Shown: one piece after another, positions 901 to 19,347 of the stretch | Numbering within the stretch: the first letter of the stretch is position 1 | Layout: the number at the start of each line of letters is the position of its first letter | DNA from: a virus | Strand: one strand, 5' to 3' | IMG/VR virus record: IMGVR_UViG_3300049629_000066 | Span: 1 to 20,464 of that record | DNA: 20,464 bases | Translations under genes and position numbers: made by a program | The notes under the pieces: model-generated | The model's database searches: none | Told to the model about the DNA's origin: nothing | The model's input: only the letters and a program-made list of their open reading frames with translations

Positions 901-2315
901 AGATTCTGTTCGATCAGTGGACGCCTGATAGACCTGGGGTTGCTTCTAACCTCTCAGAGGCTAAGAACGTCATTCCGACAAATGTCGGTTATCTACCATT
1001 GGAAGAAGCAGAAGACATCAGTAACGCAGCAGATCAAAATTTGTATGTATCAATACCTGTAAAGTTTGCTGGTACGCAATATTTATTTGCTGCTGGTTCA
1101 ACGAAATTATACTTATTCAATGACACGACAATTAACCTCGATAACAGGTCGAGGATTGTCTCTGCATATACGTCAACAGACTTTTGGGATCATGCTTTAT
1201 TCGGCAATGTGCTGATAATGTCAAACGGCAAGGACATTCTCCAAGGGTTTACTCTTGGATCATCTGCTGCTTTCAACAACCTAGACGCTGCTGCGCCTGC
1301 TGCTAAGTACGTGACGGTTGTGCGTGACTTTGTTGTGGCTGCTGGCACCACAGCAGATCCAAATAAAGTCTTTTGGTCTGATGTAAACGACGAGACGAAC
1401 TGGACGCCTGGTACAGGTTCTCAGTCTGATAGCCAGTTCATTCCCGATGGTGGCGACATCATGGGGATTACAGGCGGTGAGTTTGGCATTGTCTTGCTAG
1501 AGCGCAGCATTTACCGCATGACGTATATCGGTGCGCCCCTGTACTTCCAGTTCGACAACATAACTCGTAGTCTTGGCTGCATGAGTCGCGGTAGCATTGT
1601 GCAGTCTGGTGGCTTTACGTACTTCTTGTCTGATGACGGGTTTTATGTATGCGATGGGCAGACTGTCAAACCGATTGGGAATGATCGGGTAGACAAGTGG
1701 TTTTTTGATAACGTAGCGCCTACGGTTCTTCAGAATATCTCTGCTGCGATTGACCCGGTTAACAAAGTCGTGATCTGGGGTTTCGAGAATACCTTTGCTC
1801 AGACATACTTGCTCATTTACAACTGGGCAGCAGATAAGTGGTCGTATGCTCAAACAACAGCGGATTACGTTTCAACGCTTGCAAGCGTTCCGGTATCAGT
1901 TGAAGGGCTTGATCTGTATTCTGCCTCACTTGACGCACTTCCAGCCTCACTCGATTCACGCCTGTGGGCTGGTGGTCAGATTGTTCTCGGTGGTGTCAGG
2001 GACGCAAAGATTGTCACGTTCAGCGGTACACCGTTGACTGCCGTTCTTACGACAGGTGACATAGAACAACCTGTTAATACAATGTTGAGGCTTGCGAGGC
2101 CACTCATTGCGAATGGTTCTGCAACGGTATCTGTCGCTAGTAGGTTTAGGTTGGATGGTGATTTGAACTACTCAACCGCTGTTGCTGCATCGAGTGAGAA
2201 CAGAATTCCACTGCGTTCTGTTGGTCGTTACCATCGAATTTCGTTGACGCCGACAGGCAACTGGACAAACGCAACTGGTGTAGAGGTTGAGATAGTCCCA
2301 GCAGGGGGTCGGTGA
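897..2315 (+). CDS. Tail nozzle / packaged-DNA stabilisation protein (gp10-like)
   Basis: The 472-residue protein has a beta-propeller-like composition with repeated short beta segments, including VWSD/FWSDVNDETNWTPG, DGGDIMGITGG, IVLLERSIYRMTYIG and GSIVQSGGFTYFLSDDGFYVCDG. This set is what I know from phage stabilisation/nozzle proteins (P22 gp10, functionally T7 gp12). These form a hexameric ring below the adaptor and close the channel on packaged DNA. P22 gp10 has the same length (472), and the position immediately after the adaptor matches P22 order (4-10). The start is the ATG overlapping the adaptor stop. The end overlaps the next gene as TGATG. The protein is a virion component and should be expressed late. 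Confidence 0.8.
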   Translation: MKILFDQWTPDRPGVASNLSEAKNVIPTNVGYLPLEEAEDISNAADQNLYVSIPVKFAGTQYLFAAGSTKLYLFNDTTINLDNRSRIVSAYTSTDFWDHALFGNVLIMSNGKDILQGFTLGSSAAFNNLDAAAPAAKYVTVVRDFVVAAGTTADPNKVFWSDVNDETNWTPGTGSQSDSQFIPDGGDIMGITGGEFGIVLLERSIYRMTYIGAPLYFQFDNITRSLGCMSRGSIVQSGGFTYFLSDDGFYVCDGQTVKPIGNDRVDKWFFDNVAPTVLQNISAAIDPVNKVVIWGFENTFAQTYLLIYNWAADKWSYAQTTADYVSTLASVPVSVEGLDLYSASLDALPASLDSRLWAGGQIVLGGVRDAKIVTFSGTPLTAVLTTGDIEQPVNTMLRLARPLIANGSATVSVASRFRLDGDLNYSTAVAASSENRIPLRSVGRYHRISLTPTGNWTNATGVEVEIVPAGGR

Positions 2316-3094
2316 TGTTTCGCAGACTACCTCAGCAGGGTGGTACACCTCGGGACATTGCAGAGATCGTCAATCGGACTCTCGACGGTAAGATCAATTC
2401 TGTAGGCACCATTACTCTTGCTACGGGTGGCGCTTCTACAACCACTCTGTATGATCCCAGAATCAGCGAGGAAAGCATTATTCTGTTTGTAGCTGCCTCT
2501 GCTGCTGCCAACACAGATAACGTGCCATTTGGGGCTTTTCAAGACACCACAGACCAGTCTGCTGCAAGCACCACAACTGCTTATGCGATCACACTAGACA
2601 CGACAGACTTCAGCAACGGTGTAAGTGTTGTTAGCAACTCGCGCATCACGTTTGCAACGGGTGGCATTTATAACATCCAGTTCTCGATCCAGTTTGCTAA
2701 CGATGACGTTCAAATTCAAGATGTTGATGTGTGGTTTAGAAAAAACGGTACAGACATTGCTGGGTCTAACTCGAAGTTCTCGGTTCCCAATAAGCATGGA
2801 TCTATTAAAGGACACTTGATTGCATCATTGAACTTTTACACTCAAGTCGTTGCTGGCGACTACGTTGAAATAATGTGGGCAACGACTAACACTGCTGTGA
2901 TTCTTGAACAGCTTCCTACCCAGACAAGCCCGACTCGGCCATCTACTCCAAGTGTGATTGTCACTGCTAACAAGGTAGACGAGTCATCAACCTCGGATGT
3001 GTACGCATCGAACCAGATTCAGGGTCAATGCACCGTCAACCATTTTGCTAACTCAACTGCTAACAAAACCTACAAATATGTCGTCCTGGGCTAA
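2315..3094 (+). CDS. Virion jelly-roll protein (C1q/TNF-like insert), needle position
   Basis: I start this 259-residue protein at the ATG at 2315, six bases after a GGGGG ribosome-binding stretch. A GTG one codon upstream is less well placed. The first ~70 residues (RDIAEIVNRTLDGKINSVG, then TITLATGGASTTTLYD) and the last ~30 (CTVNHFANSTANKTYKYVVLG) together resemble a short phage virion family of about 110-130 residues. Between them sits a domain of roughly 145 residues with FQDTTDQ, VSVVSNSRITFATGGIYNIQFS, VWFRKNG and GDYVEIMW, a pattern of C1q/TNF-like jelly rolls in phage tail proteins. P22 places its needle gene (26) here, and Sf6-type needle knobs have a TNF-like fold. No long coiled coil is visible, so needle function is inference. 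It could instead be a decoration or fibre protein. Confidence 0.6.
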   Translation: MFRRLPQQGGTPRDIAEIVNRTLDGKINSVGTITLATGGASTTTLYDPRISEESIILFVAASAAANTDNVPFGAFQDTTDQSAASTTTAYAITLDTTDFSNGVSVVSNSRITFATGGIYNIQFSIQFANDDVQIQDVDVWFRKNGTDIAGSNSKFSVPNKHGSIKGHLIASLNFYTQVVAGDYVEIMWATTNTAVILEQLPTQTSPTRPSTPSVIVTANKVDESSTSDVYASNQIQGQCTVNHFANSTANKTYKYVVLG

Positions 3095-3474: not shown

Positions 3475-4332
3475 ATGAGTGGCCCATCTTCATCTACCGT
3501 TACGTCCGCGCCTGGAGCGCTTACCCCATCTGGTGGGGCATCAAACCTTTACCAGCTTGCCGCTAATCGACTAGAAACTTTGTATGGCGAGGGTGATCCT
3601 GGGGTGTATCAAGGTGATCGATATGTTAAGCCAAGTGCAGAAACAAAAGCTGCACTTCTCAGTGCATACAACACTGCCACTGGCACTAACAAACTTCTGA
3701 CAGAAGCTGTTTCGCAGCAAGAAAAAACGATTGGCGGTGACTATCTAGGCTTGAACCCGTTTTTCACCGGGGCGTTTGCTGCGGCCAAAACGCCTATAGA
3801 GGAAGCATTTCAACAACAAATTCAGAACATCACCTCACAAGCCTCGCGTGCTGGTAGATATGGATCTGGTGCAGCGCAACAGCTTCAGGAACGTGCTGCA
3901 ACTGGGTTAGCGAGGGAACTTTCCAACATCGGTGGAACTTTGGCGTTTAGAGGTTACGAGTCTGAGCGTGGGCGTCAAGAAGCTGCATCTGCCCTTGCTC
4001 CTTCGTTGTCTCAAGCTAGGTATGCCGATGCAGAAAAAGCGTTGCGAGTCGGTCAGATTCAAGAAGGCTACACTCAAGCTGAAAACCTTGGGAAAATGCA
4101 GAAATTCCAAGAAGAAGAGATGGCACCGTATATACGGCTACAGACCTTCCTATCAGGTATGTCTGGTATCCCAACAGGTCAGACCGTATCGACTGAGTAC
4201 ACATCAGATCCAACCTTGCAGTCTCTTGGTGCTGCACTAGCTGGCGGTGCTGTGTTGGGGTCGGATGGCAGTCTGAACATCCCTGCTGCTGTTGCGTCTG
4301 GTCTGCTGACGTATCTTGGCATTAAGAAGTAG
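3475..4332 (+). CDS. Putative DNA-ejection / internal virion protein 1
   Basis: This 285-residue protein starts at ATG 3475, preceded by GAGGTG. It is alanine-, glutamine- and serine-rich. The central segment includes ITSQASRAGRYGSGAAQQL and SNIGGTLAFRGYESERGRQ, followed by a helical region rich in Tyr-Ala-Asp-Ala repeats. This arrangement is common in phage proteins annotated as DNA transfer or ejection proteins. The C-terminus carries an Ala/Gly-rich stretch (LGAALAGGAVLG) and ends LLTYLGIKK, compatible with membrane insertion. Position and size correspond to P22 gp7 (229 residues), the first of three ejection proteins. The expected role is release from the capsid with the DNA to help form a conduit through the host envelope. 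The assignment rests on synteny and composition. Confidence 0.5.
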   Translation: MSGPSSSTVTSAPGALTPSGGASNLYQLAANRLETLYGEGDPGVYQGDRYVKPSAETKAALLSAYNTATGTNKLLTEAVSQQEKTIGGDYLGLNPFFTGAFAAAKTPIEEAFQQQIQNITSQASRAGRYGSGAAQQLQERAATGLARELSNIGGTLAFRGYESERGRQEAASALAPSLSQARYADAEKALRVGQIQEGYTQAENLGKMQKFQEEEMAPYIRLQTFLSGMSGIPTGQTVSTEYTSDPTLQSLGAALAGGAVLGSDGSLNIPAAVASGLLTYLGIKK

Positions 4333-4340
4333 GTGACATC

Positions 4341-5867
4341 ATGGCCGTATCAGCGTCACAACTGCAAGAACTGCTAAAAGAAGCGTTTCCGTCTGACCCA
4401 GCGCAAATGCAGGTGACGGACATCATGGTTCCGTCAGGTCGAATTAGATATGTCGACGAAATCATTGGTCAAGGTGAAAGTGGGCCTATGTATGGTTCTC
4501 GTCCAGAACCTGAGATGGTTTTGGGTGGATACTACAGCCCTGCTCTAGGTCGGCAACTTACTGCCGCAGAGACGCAACACTTAATACCAATCCAATCCTA
4601 TGTAGACGGCTATGGACAGGTAACGACAGGGCTTGTTTATCCTGGTGAAAAAGCAATCAAACTTTTCAATGAGCTTGGGTACACAGGCTCGCAGATGTCT
4701 GGACAGGCTACACCAGGTGGGTTTGAGGTATACCCACTTCCGGGGACTATCCCTACAGACCAAGGTGATCGTACAAATATCGCTATTAGTTATGGTGCAA
4801 GCGGTGCGCCTGAAGCTCGTGCATATCAATCGTCTACGCTTACAGGGAGTGCGAGTTTAGACAAGATTGTTGACCAACTCGCTAAAACAGCAAACGCAGC
4901 GCTTTTAACATACGTAGGTGGTTTAGCGCTTGGCCCTGCTGGTGCTGGGTTATTGGCAAACCCTGCTCTAGCTGGTGCCGCAGCTGGAGTAGGTCAAGCT
5001 GCTATAAAAGGTGGTGATACTAGAGATCTTTTAATAAGCGGGTTAGGTGGTGCGTTGATGGCACCTGGCGCTGATGCTGCCGCAGTTGCTGCAAGCGATC
5101 TTGCTGCGATAGAGGCGTCTATGGGGACGCCTAGCCTCTTAGGGTCGTCTAACATCCTAGATTCTATCAATCAGGCTGGAATCTACACGCCTGGGGTAGA
5201 ACCTAGCCTTTCAATGACTCCACCTCCTGTTATCAGCGAGCCTGTATTGGTTCCTGGTGATACTGCTCTAACAGGAACTCTTGCCCAGCCTCCGCTTACT
5301 GTTGAGAACATTGCCGGTCAGTTGACGCCAGAAGCACAGGCGCTCATGTTAAGCCCTACGCTACCTGTTACGCCTCTAGTTGTTGAAACTCCTGCTGGCG
5401 TGTTATCGCCTGACACAGCAAACATTATTAACACGACCGCTGTTGAAGGGTCGATGACTCCTGTTACCACTGGCGATCCGACAAAAGCGGCGCTGTATAG
5501 CAATGAAGGATATGGGCCTCTTTCAGACCTAACGGTAACTGGAGCGCCTATTACATCGTCTCCAATCACATCACTTGGCCCTGCTGCTACACTTAAAGAC
5601 GTTACTGACTATCTGACTGGTGGGGCATTTGCTGGAAATGTAACTGATGCGCTAAAAGAAGCATTCAAAGCTGCAACAGGTAGCGGTCAACAGCAAGGTA
5701 GCGGTTCTAATTTTCTTGGGCCTATCATCGGCGGTCTGTTGTCACGATCTCCAACAGCAGCGCCTTCCGCATCTGTTACGCCTGGTAGACCCGTAGACAT
5801 TACCAGCCCCATTCAGTCATTACTCGCACCTAAACTCGTTCAACAGCGCCCAGTAACGCTGCTGTGA
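4341..5867 (+). CDS. Putative DNA-ejection / internal virion protein 2
   Basis: The 508-residue product starts at ATG 4341, six bases after AGGTGA. A tyrosine- and glycine-rich N-terminal part (GGYYSPALGRQLTAAETQ) is followed at about residues 185-245 by a strongly hydrophobic Ala/Gly segment (VGGLALGPAGAGLLANPALA). This could insert in a membrane after ejection. The remaining half is low-complexity, rich in Pro, Thr, Val and Ala, and ends with a short conserved-looking tail. Size and place match P22 gp20 (471 residues). No enzymatic motif was seen. Acting as an ejectosome subunit is inference from position, hydrophobicity and neighbours. Confidence 0.5.
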   Translation: MAVSASQLQELLKEAFPSDPAQMQVTDIMVPSGRIRYVDEIIGQGESGPMYGSRPEPEMVLGGYYSPALGRQLTAAETQHLIPIQSYVDGYGQVTTGLVYPGEKAIKLFNELGYTGSQMSGQATPGGFEVYPLPGTIPTDQGDRTNIAISYGASGAPEARAYQSSTLTGSASLDKIVDQLAKTANAALLTYVGGLALGPAGAGLLANPALAGAAAGVGQAAIKGGDTRDLLISGLGGALMAPGADAAAVAASDLAAIEASMGTPSLLGSSNILDSINQAGIYTPGVEPSLSMTPPPVISEPVLVPGDTALTGTLAQPPLTVENIAGQLTPEAQALMLSPTLPVTPLVVETPAGVLSPDTANIINTTAVEGSMTPVTTGDPTKAALYSNEGYGPLSDLTVTGAPITSSPITSLGPAATLKDVTDYLTGGAFAGNVTDALKEAFKAATGSGQQQGSGSNFLGPIIGGLLSRSPTAAPSASVTPGRPVDITSPIQSLLAPKLVQQRPVTLL

Positions 5868-18480: not shown

Positions 18481-18727
18481 GTTGTCCTGCCAGCACTGCG
18501 GGGCAGAAGGTATGACCCAGGCGGCGCATGCTAACTGGGGTATCTACGGTAAGGGCATTGGGCAGAAGGCGCACGATTGCTTTGTTGCTGCTCTCTGTAT
18601 CCGTTGCCATGCCGAGCTGGATCAAGGAAAAAACCTTACTTCAGACGAGCGGCAGCAGATGTGGGAGGCTGCTTTTAGAAAAACTCTTTTAGCGTTATTT
18701 GAGACTGGGAGATTGACTTGCAAGTGA
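18443..18727 (+). CDS. YbcO/DUF1364-like HNH-type nuclease
   Basis: The 94-residue frame starts at ATG 18443 and overlaps the previous gene by 38 bases. C-Q-H-C at 16-19, A-A-H-A-N at 27-31, then CIRCHAELD at 52-60 give the two Cys pairs and the His residues of a compact HNH/beta-beta-alpha zinc fold. GKGIGQKAHDCFVAALC is typical of the YbcO/DUF1364 family of lambdoid nin regions. These small nucleases probably process recombination intermediates. Its place after ninB supports this. The last 10 bases overlap thyX. Confidence 0.75.
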   Translation: MYRSKKLLKAVSELSCQHCGAEGMTQAAHANWGIYGKGIGQKAHDCFVAALCIRCHAELDQGKNLTSDERQQMWEAAFRKTLLALFETGRLTCK

Positions 18728-19347
18728 AGCTACAGTGGGCCACGCCGGACATAGATCAGCAGATTCTGTACATGGCTAGGGTGTCCAATCCAGACAACCA
18801 GCGGTCAGAAAATACTCGGCTGATTGCGTATCTCATGGAACACGGTCACGTTTCGCCGTTCGAGATGGCTAACGTATGTATCGAGATTGAGACAACGCGA
18901 GACATCGGCAGGCAGATCCTGAGACACAGATCGTTCAGCTTCCAAGAGTTCAGCCAACGCTATCAAGACGCTGGCAAGCTCGGAACTATTGTCAACCGAG
19001 AGTGTCGACTGCAAGACACAAAGAACAGACAAAACAGCCTTGAAACAGCAGATGACAAGCTGAGGATGGAGTGGGAGAGTCTGCAACACAGAGTTGAACG
19101 TACAGCGGTTAACGCATATCGCCAGGCGTTAGACATGGGTATTGCAAAAGAGCAAGCTCGTGCGTTGCTGCCAGAGGGTCTGACTCTCTCGCGTATGTAC
19201 ATGAACGGCAACATGCGTAGTTGGATCTTCTACCTAAAACAGAGGCTTGACCCTACTACACAAAAAGAACACCGAGAGATAGCAGAGCAGGTGTTACAGG
19301 TTTTACGAGGGGTTGCACCTATCACGATGGATGCTTTTTTCAAGTAG
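18718..19347 (+). CDS. thyX: FAD-dependent thymidylate synthase ThyX
   Basis: The product converts dUMP to dTMP using methylene-tetrahydrofolate and FADH2, supplying dTTP for phage replication. I use TTG 18718 (209 residues) because GGGAG at 18707-18711 is six bases upstream. GTG 18724 is the alternative. The diagnostic RHRX7S motif is complete (Arg69-His70-Arg71, Ser79, in RHRSFSFQEFSQRY). HVSPFEMANVCIEIET and SRMYMNGNMRSWIFYLKQRL are further family signatures. The protein looks full length for a compact ThyX. No intron or frame break is present. A hairpin begins two bases after the stop. Confidence 0.95.
   Translation: MQVKLQWATPDIDQQILYMARVSNPDNQRSENTRLIAYLMEHGHVSPFEMANVCIEIETTRDIGRQILRHRSFSFQEFSQRYQDAGKLGTIVNRECRLQDTKNRQNSLETADDKLRMEWESLQHRVERTAVNAYRQALDMGIAKEQARALLPEGLTLSRMYMNGNMRSWIFYLKQRLDPTTQKEHREIAEQVLQVLRGVAPITMDAFFK

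Follow-up and report, generated by a model that had tools for sequence, protein, structure and literature searches.

What is the protein that this virus encodes where the phages SU10 and P22 encode their tail needle, and how did it come to have a jelly-roll domain in its middle? The window, i.e., the whole stretch of 20,464 nucleotides that was analysed (IMG/VR virus record IMGVR_UViG_3300049629_000066), contains at this place an intact ORF (ATG at 2315, stop at 3092-3094, 259 codons), whose product we call P0001. A preliminary description of the locus had proposed that the two ends of the protein are the halves of one small virion protein family, that a C1q/TNF-like domain lies between them, and that the whole might be a needle or plug which evolved by domain insertion. 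Here, we report that P0001 is a member of a tail-protein family (~104 residues in its short form, and present in many phages that are apparently short-tailed) with an inserted knob, and that the designation of needle holds by gene position only, as judged from sequence comparison and predicted models.

Results

The gene and its neighbours

The gene order in the window is adaptor, nozzle, P0001, GNAT and ejection protein (Table 1). The ATG of P0001 overlaps the stop codon of the nozzle gene in the motif TGATG, and an in-frame GTG at 2312 is a possible alternative start. P0001 has no Pfam or PHROG family match at E 1, and PDB sequence searches gave chance-level or implausible matches only, the best being neuroplastin (0.0041). 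The GNAT assignment comes from a Pfam Acetyltransf_1 match (0.011, below the cut-off) obtained with an upstream-extended ORF. Farther along the window, an ORF at 18718-19347 (209 aa) has a motif that we take to resemble that of flavin-dependent thymidylate synthases.

Table 1. Features around the P0001 gene (window coordinates)
Feature	Position	Strand	Evidence
SU10-type adaptor protein, 206 aa	280..900	+	Pfam SU10_adaptor E 3.8e-39; profile vs SU10 gp11 E 2.4e-36
Nozzle / head-closure protein, SU10 gp17-like by sequence, 472 aa	897..2315	+	phrog_3287 1.6e-73
P0001, long-form protein, 259 aa: short tail-protein scaffold with inserted C1q/TNF domain	2315..3094	+	
Scaffold N-terminal half, residues 1-69	2315..2521	+	short-family profile i-E 2.8e-15; model
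Inserted C1q/TNF-type jelly roll, residues ~70-226	2522..2992	+	columns 71-225 empty in 52/52 short representatives
Scaffold C-terminal half, residues 227-259	2993..3091	+	short-family profile i-E 6.8e-6 (residues 216-259); model
GNAT-like acetyltransferase gene, conserved neighbour, overlapping the end of the P0001 gene	3078..3473	+	ATG at 3078
First DNA ejection protein	3475..4332	+	phrog_4287 DNA ejection protein 1.2e-9

The two ends of P0001 are one short family

Relatives were gathered from viral contigs by six scans with the best 80 loci kept per scan, and removal of loci with identical flanks reduced 330 family hits to 278. A tblastn search of P0001 against 50,697 phage records returned 15 records of three kinds: four match over the full length, nine match the middle only (within residues 99-221), and two, from phage C72C1 and Methylophilales phage Venkman, match a portion of the N-terminal region only. 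The proteins of these two phages have 103 and 104 residues (that of Venkman is gp48) and align to both ends of P0001, and the gene directly upstream is annotated as a virion structural protein or stabilization protein.

A profile was then built from 52 short proteins and not a single long one. Searched against 14,034 ORFs, it matches P0001 twice, in residues 1-69 (i-E 2.8e-15) and in residues 216-259 (i-E 6.8e-6), and the remaining complete long forms, too, are matched twice. In the larger set (20,489 ORFs; best 80 matches per scan; loci with identical flanks removed), 90 long forms reach 250 residues, and 89 of them show both stretches; the sole exception, L082, is a gene cut by a contig end. 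In the alignment, the 52 short proteins fill 96-100% of columns 1-69, bar column 36 (one extra residue of the long form), and 98-100% of columns 227-259; columns 70 and 226 are occupied in about 40% of them and columns 71-225 in none. The search also works from the other side: the short protein L170, used as query in the phage collection, independently recovers the C-terminal 55 residues of a long form (E 9e-3). The proposal that the ends are two halves of one family is thus confirmed, each end being matched separately, and the proposed position of the insertion between the halves stands, with corrected limits: the insert is ~157 residues long rather than ~145, and the C-terminal half begins at ~227 rather than 215. 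A single continuous domain with unmatched ends is ruled out by the two-stretch profile match, by the empty columns and by the predicted model described below.

Over the ends, none of the 59 thinned short representatives compared is more than 43% identical to P0001 itself; the closest pair in the family, short L361 and long L374, shares 77 of 107 scaffold residues (72%). GNAT proteins are 78-83% identical in three compared pairs (shorts L346 and L338 against longs L374 and L393), whereas the GNAT of L361 is merely 35-37% identical to those of L374 and L393, and in the three pairs of a short locus with L393 the best alignment of the nozzle proteins spans only 230-246 residues at 54-60% identity. 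Because of that low GNAT identity and the partial nozzle alignments, the neighbour genes of short/long pairs are not equally close. Even so, the scaffold and neighbour identities indicate that fairly close relatives with and without the insert share one locus. Among 60 short members scanned, at most two weakly match any single Pfam or PHROG family, and none matches an apt NCBIfam model or a cement-type family.

Several observations concern the records themselves. The long-form gene at 5001-5780 of MW202481 (L001) is intact and has no CDS annotation in the record, and three long-form records come from Manatee Spring. A scan of genome contigs, made with single proteins that reach close relatives only, gave no long form among the matches listed. 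The one match kept, L337, is a C1q-type relative (34% identity) that matches residues 32-221; its ORF, of 642 residues, lies on a contig of a Sediminibacterium MAG and is possibly derived from a prophage.

Predicted structures of the short and long forms

AlphaFold2 single-chain models were obtained for the short protein L186 (pLDDT 88.8, pTM 0.71) and for P0001 (pLDDT 88.2, pTM 0.69). The short model has helices at 11-22 and 61-69 and strands at 29-33, 38-44, 53-58, 71-76, 79-86 and 93-99. The P0001 model keeps the N-terminal helix and the six strands, i.e., helix 12-23 and strands 30-34, 40-46 and 55-60 in the N-terminal half and strands 230-235, 238-246 and 252-258 in the C-terminal half, with the jelly-roll strands (72-220) placed between strands 3 and 4. 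In the short model this site is a connection occupied just by the short helix. The structural boundaries of the insert agree with those seen in sequence. Please note that the P0001 model is less confident at the N terminus (blocks 62-75 over the first 30 residues) and in residues 221-230 (68).

Residues 68-224 of the P0001 model match C1q/TNF structures. BxpB is the best match (VIA Z 16.8, rmsd 2.2, 134 aligned), and others include Caprin-2 C1q (Z 16.1), the central spike knob of phage phi812 (9eul; Z 16.0) and a chain of the cyanophage A4 portal-tail complex (9k09_A; Z 15.5). Among the matches listed (50 rows) the VIA Z values are 14.3-16.8 and C1q, TNF and BclA/ExsF-type members are included; Foldseek likewise matches the jelly roll to the C1q/TNF fold. 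The C1q/TNF-like domain of the preliminary description is therefore supported at the level of the predicted fold, while the Pfam C1q/TNF models find nothing in P0001 at E 1 and reach the relative L001 with TNF at just 0.14.

Since the C1q domain fills the VIA and Foldseek lists of P0001, the scaffold was compared through the short model only. The short scaffold resembles the last domains of tailspikes: Klebsiella K64-1 S2-4 depolymerase (VIA Z 7.7), K1 lyase (7.0), Pam1 tailspike (6.9, 31% identity over 64) and Sf6 tailspike (6.1), with R-pyocin fibres at about 5; these Z values are moderate (all under 8), and the list also contains unrelated proteins with values up to 4.9. Foldseek points to the tailspike C-terminal fold for residues 28-100 of the short protein with probability 1.0 and a best E of 1.5e-3, no PDB match reaching E 0.001. 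Pfam K1-lyase_C matches one of the 60 short members (0.0018). The nearest BFVD models belong to uncharacterised phage proteins (111 and 100 aa), the next is a 267-aa protein over 263 columns, and several lower rows bear the name of the K1-lyase C-terminal domain. On the predicted models, the scaffold would consist of a short N-terminal helix and a six-stranded domain resembling that which ends several tailspikes and fibres.

A conserved place behind the nozzle gene

Where enough sequence is available upstream, the family gene is the next one after the nozzle gene in 91/91 long and 168/177 short loci, and it is followed immediately by a GNAT gene in 77/81 long and 136/162 short loci (best 80 matches per scan in both counts); as many of the loci are closely related, neither count consists of independent cases. 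A previous count of 159 short loci had nine exceptions, and in each of these the nozzle gene was found 119-1245 bases upstream. The conservation of the GNAT gene beside the family gene in a tail module is an observation in itself; P22 gp14, which has the corresponding place in P22, was rejected as a relative of it (hhalign probability 0.2%).

Against SU10 gp17, the nozzle profile gives E 1.9e-4 and, in hhalign, E 7.1e-5 at a probability of 63% across 401 columns. The nozzle is also matched at 7e-5 by phrog_578, head closure Hc3, a name that P22 gp10 bears; P22 gp10 and gp4 themselves gave no match to the nozzle and adaptor of the window in direct comparison and were set aside as relatives. In SU10 the needle gp18 is encoded directly after the nozzle gp17, and in P22 the needle 26 is encoded directly after 10. 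The gene order of a needle locus, as had been described, is therefore present; compared directly, adaptor and nozzle match SU10 and not P22. Venkman, one of the short-form phages, was observed by its authors to be short-tailed and yet was classed by them with siphoviruses, its tail structures perhaps being lost (PMC8163748, in the accessible text).

Is the product a needle? The short profile scores E 62 and 60 against P22 gp26 and SU10 gp18 (hmmsearch --max), with hhalign probabilities below 1%, and homology to either needle is rejected. The single-chain models lack a coiled-coil shaft; each has a single helix of 12 residues close to the N terminus. A needle in the sense of P22 or Sf6 is consequently not what we find: gp26/gp18 similarity and shaft are both missing, and the knob is internal, in contrast to the C-terminal knob of Sf6. 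As sequence similarity and shaft both fail, we do not file P0001 as a P22- or SU10-type needle, and judging from the profiles and the predicted models the family protein may not be a needle at all.

C1q modules in other proteins

In 30 of 33 thinned other carriers the C1q module is at or near the C-terminus (proteins of 188-353 residues, stop to stop), and in the remaining three, which are larger, it is internal. In L300 and L309 the module lies within an ORF of very large size (1109 and 950 residues from one stop to the next). The locus L008 encodes a C1q-module protein between genes annotated as head-to-tail connecting protein and major capsid protein. In phiAC-1, gp44 (L005 3308-4357) has an apparent Phage_cement_2 match (E 7.8e-5) together with a C1q match (0.045), both below the Pfam cut-offs, and is possibly a capsid decoration protein bearing the same C1q module, as far as these sequence matches go. 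These head-type contexts mean that a C1q domain alone does not imply a tail tip. The record of Limnohabitans phage DC33 (L004, PQ492659) says Inoviridae, yet the genome is 39 kb and its C1q-type protein resembles those of records filed as Caudoviricetes; the classification looks doubtful.

History of the insertion

In a maximum-likelihood tree of the scaffold ends (80 rows, 102 columns; bootstrap not fully settled), the 28 thinned long forms are one clade (100/96). They are so again (99/92) in a tree with nearer relatives and with the halves aligned separately (87 rows, 110 columns), in which the fork uniting the long clade with the nearest five short rows is weak (88/33) and the next fork outward, to ten short rows, has 98/83. 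Both trees have few columns and are unrooted, with midpoint drawing. Because the long forms are a single clade among short ones, one insertion is the simplest reading of their history, and the evolution by domain insertion that had been suggested is supported by sequence, predicted structure and phylogeny alike.

The insert seems to have had a more mobile history than the scaffold. Within the 28 long forms, the two parts of the protein disagree: the grouping seen in the scaffold is rejected by the insert data (p 2e-8), and that seen in the insert by the scaffold data (p 0.001). Both groupings were chosen after the trees had been viewed, and their support is 94/83 for the scaffold and 100/100 for the insert. 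For instance, L006 and L080 are 62% identical in the scaffold and 46% in the insert, whereas L006 and L399 are 55% identical in the scaffold and 69% in the insert. This conflict between the insert tree and the scaffold tree suggests that the insert was later exchanged among long-form phages as a cassette while the scaffold was kept. In a tree with 32 jelly rolls of other proteins (thinned from 84), the 28 inserts do not form one group; three changes are seen, at least two of them forced by supported branches. The monophyly of the inserts against other carriers is not rejected (p-AU 0.065, 53 of 60 rows; L005, L302, L337, L321 and L310 and the inserts L408 and L380 were dropped), and for this reason the sequences suggest, rather than show, exchange with outside carriers. 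A different domain at the same loop was not seen among the 332 family hits (best 80 matches per scan). In the literature searched, with its thin coverage of subscription papers, we did not find the insertion described.

Discussion

A nozzle cap as the preferred reading

We have moderate confidence in the view that P0001 is a short scaffold with a once-inserted C1q jelly roll that forms a trimeric nozzle cap with a distal knob. For the family as a whole, a plug or cap at the nozzle is our best-supported guess, drawn from gene position and sequence; the literature searched gave no virion proteomics or cryo-EM of the family. By analogy with tailspike tips and C1q/TNF domains, the family protein would be a trimer. 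The N-terminal part would dock in the mouth of the nozzle that the upstream gene encodes and cap the tail channel, the C1q trimer would be the distal knob that is first to touch the host envelope, and contact with the host may help to release the cap; the short form would be the same cap minus the knob. With a TNF-like knob on its needle, P22 still infects its host and potassium release is slower (PMC3741392, in the text accessible to us), and, by analogy, the role of the C1q knob may lie in the tuning of release and not in setting host range. A wider proposal is offered tentatively: an undescribed but widespread family of shaftless trimeric caps would replace the needle in SU10-like short-tailed phages, and one loop in the tailspike-type domain of these caps would be a fixed socket in which a knob was inserted once and swapped repeatedly. 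If this is true, the first-contact knob could be exchanged by recombination without rebuilding the plug.

Another reading puts the family protein at the side of the nozzle or adaptor as a peripheral trimeric fibre or receptor-binding cap, with C1q as the adhesin. The scaffold resembles the tip domains of tailspikes and fibres, the insert is apparently exchanged, and a C1q-fold chain belongs to the cyanophage A4 portal-tail complex 9k09; furthermore, the C1q-like genes of other phages have been described as coding for putative receptor-binding proteins and as lying in variable islands, and phages whose core genomes are 96-99.7% identical differ in them (PMC7468147, as far as its accessible text goes). 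Against this, the gene is exactly at the SU10/P22 needle position and the predicted models are without a fibre shaft, and we consider the fibre reading possible but on balance unlikely. It is more doubtful still, and in our view improbable, that a decoration protein of head or neck is by chance encoded in the tail module. The C1q-module gene of L008, between head-to-tail connecting and major capsid protein genes, and the sub-threshold cement-type match beside the C1q module of phiAC-1 gp44 are the points in its favour, whereas no short member has a cement-type match and the gene stays after the nozzle gene in nearly all loci.

With respect to origin, the short proteins might be a long ancestor minus its C1q domain. 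A loss would also be a single change, the trees are unrooted with midpoint drawing, and the nearest sister fork is the weak one; the long forms, however, make up a single clade next to several groups of short ones, and since short forms account for most of the sequence diversity sampled, we regard one ancient loss as very improbable. Even further down the scale, to the point of being negligible, is a chance or convergent likeness of the P0001 ends to the short family. The C-terminal half is indeed of ~33 residues only and the identity of P0001 to the thinned short representatives is modest, but chance is ruled out by the independent E-values of the two ends, the 72% identity of the closest pair, the common gene neighbours and the same predicted strands. 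We thus retain one insertion into a short scaffold, and the nozzle cap as its most plausible place in the virion.

The case is of interest as a natural insertion of a complete, probably trimeric domain into the loop of another, with insert-free near relatives at the same locus, which makes it a clean case for the study of how knobs are acquired at the tips of phage tails. It also draws attention to an uncharacterised family whose genes occupy the needle position in many phages, and it suggests that C1q modules, known as variable parts of phage genomes (from the accessible part of PMC7468147), move here within a fixed scaffold.

Comparison with known systems

The nearest system by gene order is SU10 (Kuravirus), in which gp18 follows the nozzle gene directly, as the family gene does, and of which the adaptor and nozzle are related to those of the window. 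SU10 gp18 is a three-chain needle gripped by the propeller loops of the nozzle, with a coiled coil and a beta-prism tip (PMC9509320, in the portion available to us); it differs from the family in being 322 aa long, in lacking sequence similarity to it, and in that the family models are shaftless. Like P0001, the needle of Sf6/HS1 is encoded at the needle locus and has a TNF-like jelly-roll knob, but its knob is C-terminal on a coiled coil and that of P0001 is inside a beta domain; according to its authors, the Sf6/HS1 knob arrived recently and has relatives beyond the group (both from the accessible text of PMC3741392). PDB sequence searches with E up to 10 did not match the Sf6 knob. The C-terminal domains of tailspikes (Pam1, Sf6, Klebsiella K64-1 S2-4; Pfam K1-lyase_C) have a beta-domain fold that the predicted scaffold may share, whereas the family protein is free-standing, of ~100 aa, with an N-terminal helix, and hosts an inserted domain. 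The variable-island C1q-like proteins, as far as they are described in the accessible PMC7468147 text, are a further example of variable C1q genes. Cyanophage A4 9k09_A and the phi812 central spike knob (9eul) carry the C1q/TNF fold on phage tail parts, like P0001, but in 9k09_A the matched part is C-terminal (228-372 of 372 residues) and not in the loop of a tailspike-type domain.
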